This document shows, in pieces, positions 40,531-50,955 of a stretch of 52,030 nucleotides of DNA. Position numbers and translations under genes: made by a program. How positions within the stretch are numbered: position 1 is the stretch's first letter; each line of letters opens with the position of its first letter. The notes beneath the pieces are model-generated. The model was not told the DNA's origin. It ran no database searches and saw only the letters and a list, made by a program, of their open reading frames with translations. Source of the DNA: a virus; the IMG/VR virus record IMGVR_UViG_3300043446_002027, positions 1 through 52,030 of that record; one strand, given 5' to 3'.

Positions 40531-40950
40531 TTAAGCCACATTACCAGTAATATCGATGTTACCCGAGAATACACTGGTATTACCAGACTCTTCAACTTGA
40601 ACAAAACTATCACTGGTGCTGGTACTAAAGTTCCAAGGTCCTGTAAACAACACTGCACCAGCTGTGTCTACAGACGTAAGTTTACGACCACTGATTTTGG
40701 TAACAAAACCTAGTGTACCATCATCGGCCTTGGTCTTGATAGTCATGTCTCCGGCTGCTAGACTGCCATCGGCCTTGTTGGTTAGGCGACAAACAGCTTC
40801 TGTACCAGCTGCATCTACGCAACGAAATTTTTTAGATCCTAGCTGCTTGACTATAGCGCCATCAACTGATGCTGTGCCATTATGAAAACGAACACGGATG
40901 TTATTGTTGTTATCAAATCCAAAATATCGACTATTAATTGGGCGTCCCAT
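40531..40950 (-). CDS. Conserved phage structural protein (139 aa)
   Basis: Begins MGRPINSRYFGFDNNN, then VRFHNGTASVDGAIVKQLGS and FRCVDAAGTEAVCRLTNK, ending SVFSGNIDITGNVA. I recall close relatives (MARPIxKRFFG... VKQLGSKRFRC) in T4-like aquatic phages, listed as structural or hypothetical. AAGGAG lies upstream of the ATG. The gene is a unit of its own, ended by the UUCG terminator. Its location between capsid and tail genes gives no firm clue to placement in the virion. Confidence 0.78.
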   Translation of the reverse strand: MGRPINSRYFGFDNNNNIRVRFHNGTASVDGAIVKQLGSKKFRCVDAAGTEAVCRLTNKADGSLAAGDMTIKTKADDGTLGFVTKISGRKLTSVDTAGAVLFTGPWNFSTSTSDSFVQVEESGNTSVFSGNIDITGNVA

Positions 40951-41066
40951 TTGTTTTCTCCTTAATAAGGCGTTCTAGGCCTACGGGGTGGGTATCCCCA
41001 TAAACTTTTATAAGCGAACATAGTATTTACCATTTTTATTGACTTTTAGACAGGAATCTTGTACAG

Positions 41067-47353: not shown

Positions 47354-49435
47354 TTAGCTTGATGCATACAATATTGACTGTTGCAAATCTCGTTGTTCAC
47401 GCATGTAATTTAGCATATCGTTGTACTGATCCATCTGTAATTTGCCAAGCATGATTTGCTCTTGCAAGAGATTTTTTAAATCTCCTAGATCGTTATTCGA
47501 CTTTGTATAACTGCTCATTTGTGAATTACTTATAATTTCACCAGACGACTGTGGCCTAAATAATTCCGGGCCTCGTTCACCCACTAGGTAGGTTGAAGAA
47601 GGATTCACAGGTCCACCAGCAGCTCTAGCCGGTGGGCTAAAAGTAGCTGTCGTACCTGCACCAATTAGAAATCCTGCACTGGCTCCTAGTTTGCCACCAA
47701 TGGCCATACCTAACAGTGCCCCGGGTGGACCGCCAGCTAAGAATCCTAATATGGCTCCACCAATTACACCCAGCAGCCCGCCAACTAATGCCCCTACTAA
47801 TCCGCCAGCAACTTCTTTCATTAATTGAACTATACCTCCCATGCTATTAACAAACGATTGAGTAGTAGCAATAATGCTTTGTAATGCAGATGAAAACTGC
47901 GGCAAATATGCTAAAATTTCGTTCTCGAACTGCACTCTGAAGTTCTGCACTGCTTGTATAGTAGAGTTAGTGGCATTTGTTAGTGCATCTGCTGTATTTT
48001 TTTGTCCATCTACTGCTTGCTGTGCAGACAGCACAGATTTTTCAGTAATGGCGTCTGTTTCTCTTAATTTGTCGGCACCTTGTCTACTTGCATCACCTAC
48101 TATTCCTGTTACACCTGCTATTCCAGCAATACCAATCGCTCTTAAACCTTCAAGGTTATTTCGCATTTGGTCATTACTTCTTCCTTGTAGAATTTGATAA
48201 TCTTTAACGTTAACGTTACCAGATTCCAACAAACCGACAAAACCTTCTATGCCGTTTTTAATACCTTGATTTGACGCCATTAACACATTTGATGTAACGT
48301 CTGTAACCGTGCCTAGTGTAAATAATTGATTAATTGCTCTTTTTTCGGCTTCGCTTCTTGTAGCTATAGCGGCTTCATAAGCAGCAGTAATTCCAGGAGA
48401 CCTTTTTTCTAATTCTTGCAATTTTAATCTGACCGCGATTTGACTACTGGAGGCCTTGGCCTCTTCCATTTTTCGTTTAGCGTCTTCTCCGGTTATAGCT
48501 GCAATAGTACGTAAATTAGTGGCATAATCTGATACAGCTCTGGCCACTGCATTAGGATCCTGCATGTCTGCGCTGTTGGCTCTACGCATGATTGCTAAAA
48601 CATCTGCTGTTAATGCGGCCTGTTCCTCGAAACTATAGCCTAAATTTAGTAATTGTGTTTGTATACCACTTGTCCTAATCACCTTACCCACGTTACCTAA
48701 GGCTCTAGCAGCTTCACCTACACTTAGTCCAGATTCAGCTAAAGTACGACTATTAGAGCTTATTACAGAGCCGAATTGTTGTATAGTAAGTCCTGCTTGA
48801 TTGGCACTGTTTCTTAGTCCAGTCATACCATCAACAAATAACGCTCCTGCTTTGCTGCTGTTTCTAAATTGTTCTACAGTTTTTTCTAATTCACGAACAA
48901 ATATACCAACAATCGAACTAAATGCGCCGCCTACGATAGGAATTTGATTAGCAAATGTACCAAGAACATTACCTACGGCACCAATTTCGTTGCCGTTGCC
49001 TTGTAAGAAATTCCCTGCGCTAGAGATTATATTACCAAATGCAGTTCCGACCTCAGTGGCAGTTTTTTTAAATGCCGTTAAACTGTTTATAGTACCAGCA
49101 ATAGCGATTTGCTTGTCTGCATAACTTTTATTTTCTTGAAGAATCTTTCGTTCTTCACGTGTGCCATTTTTAATAGTATCGCTGAGTTGTTTTTTATATT
49201 CATCATTGATATTTTTAGAAACGTTCGCAAGTTCCTGATTATGCCTGAGCAAGACCGAGGTAATCTTGCCCATTGGACTGGTTTGTTTTTTAATTTCGTT
49301 AGAATATTGTTGCAGACGCTGGATGAAATCAGACACCGAACCTACATTAAAGGATCTAGTACCAGCAGGGGCGCCAGAGCCGGCCATGGCTCTGGCTATT
49401 TCATTGGCTAAACGTTCATAATCAAAATTATCCAC
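47354..49435 (-). CDS. Tape-measure-like tail protein (693 aa)
   Basis: GTG start at 49435 with GGGA about 7 nt upstream and an exact late promoter 31 bp away. The N-terminal half is helical. Residues ~530-595 are a glycine-zipper hydrophobic region (GGLVGALVGGLLGVIGGAIL), followed by AAGGPVNPSSTYLVGERGPELF and GEIISN around residue 605. This C-terminal motif (GGxV...YLVGExGPELF...G.II.N) is the hallmark of many phage tape-measure proteins. Such proteins set tail length and are ejected to help DNA cross the membrane. The length would specify a short tail by the usual ~1.5 A per residue rule. T4's own tape measure, gp29, has no such motif, so this may be an alternative or additional protein. 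The divergent gp26/gp51 pair lies next door. Confidence 0.8.
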   Translation of the reverse strand: MDNFDYERLANEIARAMAGSGAPAGTRSFNVGSVSDFIQRLQQYSNEIKKQTSPMGKITSVLLRHNQELANVSKNINDEYKKQLSDTIKNGTREERKILQENKSYADKQIAIAGTINSLTAFKKTATEVGTAFGNIISSAGNFLQGNGNEIGAVGNVLGTFANQIPIVGGAFSSIVGIFVRELEKTVEQFRNSSKAGALFVDGMTGLRNSANQAGLTIQQFGSVISSNSRTLAESGLSVGEAARALGNVGKVIRTSGIQTQLLNLGYSFEEQAALTADVLAIMRRANSADMQDPNAVARAVSDYATNLRTIAAITGEDAKRKMEEAKASSSQIAVRLKLQELEKRSPGITAAYEAAIATRSEAEKRAINQLFTLGTVTDVTSNVLMASNQGIKNGIEGFVGLLESGNVNVKDYQILQGRSNDQMRNNLEGLRAIGIAGIAGVTGIVGDASRQGADKLRETDAITEKSVLSAQQAVDGQKNTADALTNATNSTIQAVQNFRVQFENEILAYLPQFSSALQSIIATTQSFVNSMGGIVQLMKEVAGGLVGALVGGLLGVIGGAILGFLAGGPPGALLGMAIGGKLGASAGFLIGAGTTATFSPPARAAGGPVNPSSTYLVGERGPELFRPQSSGEIISNSQMSSYTKSNNDLGDLKNLLQEQIMLGKLQMDQYNDMLNYMREQRDLQQSILYASS

Positions 49436-49484: not shown

Positions 49485-50330
49485 ATGTCAGGTCAATCCA
49501 ATCCCTTGAGCGGATATTTTCGACAACCAGCCATATATCTCTCATTGCCCAGCCGAGGACGATGGTGGGATCAAGGATCAATTGATTTGCCCAGCAACGG
49601 AGAAATCCCAGTCTATCCTATGACAGCCAAAGACGAAATAGTGATTAGAACGCCAGACGCTCTACTAAATGGGCAAGGCGTAGTTGATGTTATCCAAAGC
49701 TGTTGTCCAAATATTAAAGATGCATGGAAAATGCCCAGCGTAGATGTTGACACGATACTGATTTCTATACGCATTGCCACGTACGGCAACACCATGAATT
49801 TTAACAGCCAATGTCCGCATTGCAAAGAAATGAACACCTATGAGGTAGACCTTGGCGGTCCGTTATCTAATATTCCCAAGTCTGATTACAGCGATGTGTT
49901 AGAGTATCAGGATCTGAGCATAAAATTAAAACCTCAGCAGTTTTTTAATGTAAACAAAGCCAATATGCTTAATTTCGAAGAACAGCGCATGATAGAGGCC
50001 TTAAACGACACTACATTAAGTCAAGAAGAAAAATCAGCACAAATCACAGTTAGTATGTCCAAAATCATTGAAATGGGCATATCGGGATGTGCCAATAGCA
50101 CAGAGTATATTGATTTACCAAATGGCACCAGAGTCAGTGATGTAAAATTTATCGAAGAATTCTATATAAATGCAGAAAATCGAGTAGTAAAATTAATACA
50201 AGAAAGAATTACTGAACTAGTACAGCAATCAAAAATCCCAGCAATGCACATCCGTTGTGATGACTGTGACAAAGAGTACGACAGCGAACTGGAGTTTGAT
50301 TACGCTAATTTTTTCGCAAAAGGCTTTTAG
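49485..50330 (+). CDS. gp26: Baseplate hub assembly protein, T4 gp26 family (281 aa)
   Basis: Matches the T4_baseplate family: YFRQPAIYLSLPSRGRWWDQ at residues 11-30, then EIPVYPMTAKDEIVIRTPDALL and the conserved VDVIQSCCPNI. Two CxxC pairs, Cys110/Cys113 (NFNSQCPHC) and Cys258/Cys261 (IRCDDCDKEYDSELEF), could bind one zinc. In T4, gp26 acts in baseplate hub assembly; homologues are often described as hub assembly chaperones. AGGAAA lies about 8 nt before the ATG. The stop TAG (50328-50330) lies inside a 7-bp inverted repeat just after a slippery heptamer, so a fraction of ribosomes may continue in the -1 frame to give a 354-aa fusion with the gp51-like tail. Confidence 0.92.
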   Translation: MSGQSNPLSGYFRQPAIYLSLPSRGRWWDQGSIDLPSNGEIPVYPMTAKDEIVIRTPDALLNGQGVVDVIQSCCPNIKDAWKMPSVDVDTILISIRIATYGNTMNFNSQCPHCKEMNTYEVDLGGPLSNIPKSDYSDVLEYQDLSIKLKPQQFFNVNKANMLNFEEQRMIEALNDTTLSQEEKSAQITVSMSKIIEMGISGCANSTEYIDLPNGTRVSDVKFIEEFYINAENRVVKLIQERITELVQQSKIPAMHIRCDDCDKEYDSELEFDYANFFAKGF

Positions 50331-50339
50331 CTCTAAAAG
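50309..50339 (+). promoter_or_regulatory. Candidate programmed -1 frameshift site
   Basis: Slippery heptamer T TTT TTC at 50309-50315, in phase with gp26 codons TTT (50310) and TTC (50313). After an 8-nt spacer comes the perfect inverted repeat CTTTTAG (50324-50330) / CTAAAAG (50333-50339), a possible stimulatory stem that holds the TAG. A GGAG at 50291-50294 lies 14 nt upstream of the slip site. All three parts of a classical -1 signal are present, though the stem is AU-rich and the upstream element is only a candidate. Confidence 0.72.
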
Positions 50340-50548
50340 ATGAAGCTACGATTGTAAATTTATTAGAAGGTTACGATCGAGAGATAAAAGCCATAAGGGA
50401 AGAATTGCTTCGAATGTGCTGGTTCATGCGTGGAAGTATTAGTTACACAGAAGCTATGATGTTAAGTAGTTCTGATAGAGAAATAATCTCAAAAATTATA
50501 AAAGAAAATTTAGAAACAGCCAAAGAAAGCAAAATGCCTTTCTGGTAA
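50315..50548 (+). CDS. gp51: gp51-like tail/baseplate hub assembly frame, probably read by -1 frameshift (77 codons)
   Basis: The -1 frame relative to gp26 is open from 50309 (after a TAA at 50306) to TAA at 50546-50548. From the slip point it encodes RKRLLALKDEATIVNLLEG, then YDREIKAIREELLRMCWFMR, GSISYTEAMMLSSSDREII and ENLETAKESKMPFW. The MCWxMRG...YTEA...ER/DREII...KENLE pattern is that of small gp51-like hub assembly proteins in T4-like phages, and of the T half of gpG/T chaperones. No ATG or GTG occurs before a TTG at 50405 (with AAGGGA near it) and an ATG at 50414. Ordinary initiation would therefore give only 44-47 residues and lose the conserved N-terminal helix. A fusion of 277 gp26 residues plus 77 is the better reading; internal initiation at the TTG is the alternative. 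Confidence 0.75.
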   Translation, partial: RKRLLALKDEATIVNLLEGYDREIKAIREELLRMCWFMRGSISYTEAMMLSSSDREIISKIIKENLETAKESKMPFW

Positions 50549-50955
50549 CAAGATTTGCAAGCAAATCTATTTCTTTCGCTTGCGCTCAGAAATCTTTTTC
50601 CTTACACAGTTAACTGGGCATTCATCCAGATAATTCAGTCATAATTTGCCCGCTAGGAGCAAATTATGATGACGCCTTCATCCGAGTGCATCAGTCACTG
50701 ATTGGAAGAGTTGTTTATTCAACAGGAGGCGGTTGACCTGTACCCCCATACTCTCGCCTTTGCATGTCAACGGAACCCTAATTGCACTATTCAGCAGCAT
50801 AATCAGAGCCTACGGTTGTATCTTTTTCACAGAGCCGTAACCATTTGAGACCTTAAGTTGGTTTCTTGCCTTGCAATGCCCAAGATCCGGCGGTAAACAA
50901 ATACAGCCTCAATGGGAGTCGAGCAGCCCCGACTAAACACTATTGCATGATATGA
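50549..50955. other. Non-coding block with several stem-loops (candidate structured RNA)
   Basis: No protein-coding frame of significant length is convincing here (short frames of <=40 codons only). Local structure is rich: a perfect 10-bp hairpin CATAATTTGC / GCAAATTATG (50640-50649, 50659-50668), GATGA...TCATC, ATCAG...CTGAT, GTTGAC...GTCAAC (50732-50737, 50766-50771), TACGG...CCGTA, AGTCG...CGACT, and a TGCAAT...ATTGCA pair that could close the last part (about 50873-50878 and 50943-50948). Base composition is visibly more GC-rich than in neighbouring late genes. A phage rarely spends 400 bp on a gap between converging genes. It also lies downstream of both, so either strand may be the functional one. 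Confidence 0.35.
50551..50568 (+). terminator. Possible terminator hairpin after gp51-like frame
   Basis: AGATTTGC AA GCAAATCT is an 8-bp perfect palindrome (or 7 bp with a CAAG loop) starting 2 bp after the stop codon. On the plus strand it is followed by ATTTCTTT, a weak U-tract. Termination is likely but not strong. Confidence 0.5.

Follow-up and report, generated by a model that had tools for sequence, protein, structure and literature searches.

How is the open −1 reading frame that overlaps the end of a gp26-like gene expressed in an uncultured, T4-like giant phage? The window analysed here, IMG/VR virus record IMGVR_UViG_3300043446_002027 (52,030 bases), has no nucleotide relatives that we could find among named phages. 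A first-pass annotation of its sequence proposed that a programmed −1 ribosomal frameshift joins the gp26-like gene to a gp51-like frame. Comparison with homologous loci supports this reading, and we consider it very probable that frameshifting yields both gp26 (TAC-N) and a 354-aa fusion (TAC-NC), with a downstream stem probably setting their ratio.

The gp26-like gene and its overlapping −1 frame

The gp26-like gene (49485-50330, plus strand) encodes a 0-frame product, TAC-N, of 281 aa. By its profile matches to PF12322 (T4_baseplate, 1.7e-12) and phrog_150 (baseplate hub, 1.2e-18), this short product is a homologue of T4 gp26. A BFVD search with its AlphaFold model (pLDDT 83) brought up T4-like baseplate hub proteins; no meaningful resemblance to solved structures was seen by sequence or fold search. 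The gene ends in the codons AAT TTT TTC GCA AAA GGC TTT TAG, which hold the slippery heptamer T TTT TTC in the 0 frame (50309-50315) and the TAG stop (50328-50330). A TAA stop immediately 5′ of the heptamer (50306-50308) bars earlier entry into the −1 frame, which then stays open to a TAA at 50546-50548. The interval from 50309 to the TAG at 50328, where the heptamer sits, is thus the sole place at which ribosomes could enter that frame. The −1 extension (50309-50548 including the stop, plus strand) has 79 codons counting both Phe, or 77 past the slip, and would supply the C-terminal domain of the predicted fusion, with the junction peptide NFFRKR. We rechecked the coordinates originally given for the terminal codons, the heptamer, the lengths, the 354-aa fusion and its junction, and all were right, as was the statement that the frame is open for 77 codons with no ATG or GTG before its MCW motif. 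Its first start-like codons are a TTG at 50405-50407, the only one ahead of the CW motif and judged an unlikely start (see below), and the ATG at 50414 that encodes the M of MCW. In-frame T TTT TTY occurs four times in the 17,002 codons of the window's long ORFs, or about 0.0016 expected per 7-codon crossing window. A GGAG lies at 50291-50294, 14 nt upstream of the heptamer; it was rejected as a Shine-Dalgarno-like stimulator, relatives compared by eye not sharing it.

The locus had also been likened to the gpG/gpGT arrangement beside a tape-measure-like gene. Such a gene is indeed adjacent (47354-49435; phrog_1538 tape measure, 1.4e-8), as expected of a TAC locus, but it lies on the minus strand and is transcribed divergently from gp26. 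The order portal, tape-measure-position gene, divergent gp26 recurs in PA5oct, RaK2, 121Q and Phosso. On the other flank, about 400 nt (50549-50955) without a convincing gene separate the end of the −1 extension from a minus-strand RusA-like resolvase gene, and this stretch has no Rfam match. Elsewhere in the window, 40948-41021 (minus strand) matches the Rfam freshwater-2 RNA (RF02980) with 52.9 bits, above the family's gathering score of 49.9.

Conservation of the slip site and of −1 coding

Relatives were gathered by gp26 protein similarity, the heptamer playing no part in finding loci. They comprised 33 IMG/VR loci, 63 named phage records (almost all jumbo phages) and 80 more found by profile; T4, S-PM2, P-SSM2, HTVC008M, KVP40, phiM12, phiW-14 and Cr30 were added through phrog_150, to which PAU had no match. 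We tabulated 127 loci, a few of them the same contig twice (112 are non-redundant), and kept outside the table two loci that are truncated (L032 and L033), near-identical copies, and LR756511 (L049), a distant record. The first-pass annotation had suggested aligning the gp26/gp51 junction of related phages, and this alignment bore it out: T TTT TT(C/T), the −1 phase and the extension are present in all 127 loci, with the heptamer in frame near the gp26 end (47/47 across the T4 superfamily and 80/80 further loci). Its carriers include jumbo phages, cyanophages, a pelagiphage, Cr30, phiM12, KVP40 and phiW-14. It is absent from T4, where gene 26 ends ...GAG TTC TTT GAG TTA CTA TAA. KVP40, which like T4 belongs to the Straboviridae, has GAT TTT TTC GTA TAA TGC followed by a −1 extension, indicating that the T4 arrangement is not common to the whole family.

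The conservation extends to bases that the gp26 protein leaves free. The codon preceding the two Phe encodes N, S, D, H, R, Y or A, yet it ends in T in every case (log10 P −12.7 given the genes' own codon usage, relatedness ignored), and the first Phe is invariably TTT (log10 P −7.7, relatedness ignored), a codon whose share of the Phe codons across these genes is only 69%. The −1 extension is 59-82 codons long where complete and stop-free in all complete relatives, while the remaining two frames have 2-11 stops each over the same 60 codons. Pooled dN/dS of about 0.28-0.58, depending on the segment, places the −1 frame under purifying selection. By comparison among relatives, then, both the slip site and −1 coding are conserved.

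The relationship of this frame to T4 gp51 became clearer at the level of whole proteins. In phrog_150, T4 gp51 covers positions 3-281 and T4 gp26 only 10-236, P-SSM2 covering the same span in two frames. In hhalign, T4 gp51 aligns end to end with the P-SSM2-type fusion, crossing the junction (probability 97.2), and the fusion of the window's clade aligns with the same P-SSM2-type fusion (96.3). Directly against T4 gp51, the window-clade fusion gives a weak 15.9, the connection running through cyanophage-type relatives, and the window's C-terminal domain alone has no significant match to gp51. The description of the −1 frame as gp51-like holds in part: the alignment of T4 gp51 with the predicted fusion of T4-like relatives spans the junction, but, since gp51 has a gp26-like N-terminal domain of its own, the −1 ORF would by these alignments correspond to its C-terminal domain only. 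Together, the alignments and the phrog_150 spans suggest that T4 has a stand-alone gene, 51, for the counterpart of the product that its relatives would obtain by slippage.

Could the −1 frame instead be a separate small gene, with its own start or re-initiated after the gp26 stop? A second ORF is annotated in the records of 121Q, Phosso and XbC2, and an ATG lies 4-5 codons into the frame in cyanophages, KVP40, phiW-14, Cr30, phiM12 and 121Q, where coupled re-initiation is conceivable; other candidate starts are the TTG at 50405 in the window and, in some relatives, a TTG that overlaps the stop codon or an ATG close by. We nonetheless judge a separate gene very unlikely. In 28 of 123 loci the first 31 codons of the −1 frame contain no ATG, GTG or TTG at all, making a start codon there dispensable. 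The TTG at codon 7 swaps freely with TTA, its third base being accounted for by pairing in the stem described below (pair 23-76), and conservation of FFRxRLL lies upstream of most possible starts. Free initiation would have no need of the heptamer, and T4 gp51 holds both domains in one chain.

Slippage by RNA polymerase, rather than by the ribosome, on the run of T could also join the two frames, a homopolymer of six to eight T being present in every relative. Known transcriptional slippage sites are usually longer runs, and the majority of relatives end in TTC with six T only. An X XXY YYZ phase that never varies, together with a stem 6 nt past the heptamer, suits ribosomal slippage, and we give the polymerase very little credence, less even than independent initiation.

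A covarying stem downstream of the heptamer

Folding, RNAalifold and covariation converge on a predicted stimulatory stem (plus strand), whose 5′ arm, GGCTTTTA (50322-50329), follows a 6-nt spacer, begins 7 nt past the heptamer and overlaps the gp26 stop codon, and whose 3′ arm, TAAAAGCC, lies at 50385-50392. The 100 nt past the heptamer fold in the window with a z of −3.1, GGCUUUUA pairing with UAAAAGCC, and RNAalifold recovers the identical 8 pairs without guidance from 24 sequences. Equivalent stems in relatives read GGCTTTTGAC/GTCAAAAGCC, GGCTCTTGACT/AGTCAAGAGCC and AGCCTCTTAACT/AGTTAAGGGGCT, with GGCTCTTTGT/ACAAAGAGCC in Atu_ph07. A possible inner hairpin within the loop (50349-50379, plus strand) was predicted by RNAfold for the window; the loop interior varies among relatives, and an inner hairpin is enriched in 26 of 77.

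The stem covaries across the clade. In a gap-free alignment of 77 sequences, compensatory double changes occur at 8 of 10 pairs (74 cells), and the covariation score and the numbers of paired cells, double-change cells and pair types each exceed all 500 shuffles. At pair 23-76 (G-C or A-U), we counted about 13 changes on the tree, versus 12 and 10 for the single sides, indicating that most changes strike both sides together. Several of these bases are silent in the −1 protein: the T/C of a Leu codon CTT/CTC tracks A/G at its partner, and the G/A of TTG/TTA tracks C/T. Protein constraint does not explain such silent changes matching the partner base. In shuffles of synonymous codons that kept the −1 protein, a stem starting at this position beat the shuffled sequences (p≤0.05) in 85 of the 112 non-redundant sequences, compared to 25 at a control position whose own count is elevated, inner hairpins being the probable cause; the median folding z at the stem position was −3.0.

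The 3′ arm shifts by lineage (+53, +66, +73 to +79), while the 5′ arm stays fixed relative to the heptamer. No RNAalifold consensus was obtained from the 77-sequence set, in which some lineages have the 3′ arm elsewhere. S-PM2, P-SSM2, phiM12 and XacN1 have strong stems of their own beginning 3-9 nt past the heptamer. No such stem was seen in the enterobacterial-type jumbo phages RaK2, 121Q, XbC2, GAP32, BF and Munch, though the heptamer is present. Pseudoknots between the loop and downstream sequence occurred at chance level (3/77 at p≤0.05), and no curated Rfam family, known frameshift elements included, matched up to an E-value of 1.

The stimulator originally put forward was another structure, a perfect 7-bp inverted repeat containing the TAG (CTTTTAG-CT-CTAAAAG, 50324-50339). 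The repeat exists, but with a loop of 2 nt no more than 6 bp can form, its folding is poorer than that of shuffled sequences (z +1.1), and it is not conserved, with 57% of cells paired and zero double changes. We therefore regard the longer-range stem (50322-50329/50385-50392), and not the local repeat, as the real candidate for a stimulator. The stem may still be real and serve some other role, such as in mRNA stability, the heptamer sufficing for slippage, as the enterobacterial-type group with its heptamer and no stem would suggest. This we think improbable, though distinctly less so than either rival account of the −1 frame: a 5′ arm fixed from the heptamer with a mobile 3′ arm is what would be expected of a structure measured from the slip site.

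A predicted chaperone frameshift and its known counterparts

In the mechanism we propose, most ribosomes translating gp26 would terminate at the TAG at 50328 and yield TAC-N, the short chaperone. On U UUU UUC, where tRNA-Phe occupies the UUU and UUC codons, a minority would move back one base and continue for 77 codons to give TAC-NC. The stem-loop, its 5′ arm beginning 7 nt past the heptamer and the partner site lying about 55 nt beyond, probably makes the ribosome pause or puts strain on it, and so sets the ratio. Slippage in the cell, its efficiency and its stimulation by the stem are what we infer from the comparative patterns. By analogy with lambda gpG/gpGT, both products would act as chaperones in a given TAC-N:TAC-NC ratio, binding and loading the tape-measure protein encoded alongside, and neither would be expected in the virion. 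A broader proposal, which we favour somewhat, is that jumbo T4-like phages share a previously undescribed, lineage-wide stimulatory element, a stem with a fixed spacer from an invariant T TTT TTC and a mobile 3′ arm, which tunes their TAC-N:TAC-NC ratio, frameshifting being ancestral in the T4 superfamily and T4 having swapped in a full-length gene 51.

If the locus works as predicted, the lambda-type chaperone frameshift, formerly held to be absent from T4, has been kept with hardly any variation in its slip site by jumbo phages, cyanophages, a pelagiphage and KVP40, and the covarying stem offers a testable candidate RNA stimulator. The pattern also provides an annotation rule for such phages, whose public records split the halves into two genes or miss the second. 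In the records viewed (L034-L038 and L041-L048), the C-terminal half is a separate short gene, truncated or unannotated, and none has a joined CDS for both halves.

Vladimirov, Gautam and Davidson (2022; Virology 566:9-15) reportedly worked out which genes encode the TACs in T4-like phages, and their abstract is said to describe frameshifting in several T4-like groups, while T4 has genes 26 and 51 for this. That work is cited for poly-T slip signals in T4-like TAC-N genes in the relevant passage of PMC12846349; the mechanism, of which the first-pass annotation knew no description for T4-like gp26/gp51, was thus already a published prediction. A 2016 review (PMC5009743) had called the G-T frameshift widespread 'except T4'. 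The new part is the covarying stem, of which we found no description in the open literature, a body that misses most subscription papers.

The locus shares with the T4-like gp26/gp51 chaperones the family (PF12322/phrog_150), the −1 junction and the poly-T slip site, the long form in T4 being a separate gp51; it may differ in its stem, for which we found no description among those chaperones in the open literature. The TAC locus of phage Adele (Pakpunavirus/Andersonviridae) belongs to other phage families and the passages of PMC12846349 that treat it do not name a covarying stem, but it has a similar poly-T motif (GTTTTT), a conserved −1 extension and the TAC-N/TAC-NC pair. Lambda gpG/gpGT (PMC5009743) uses another heptamer, and in the window the chaperone and tape-measure genes are divergent; the likeness to gpG is one of arrangement. 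What the two systems share is a short and a frameshift-extended chaperone encoded next to the tape-measure gene, with slippage close to where the short gene ends.
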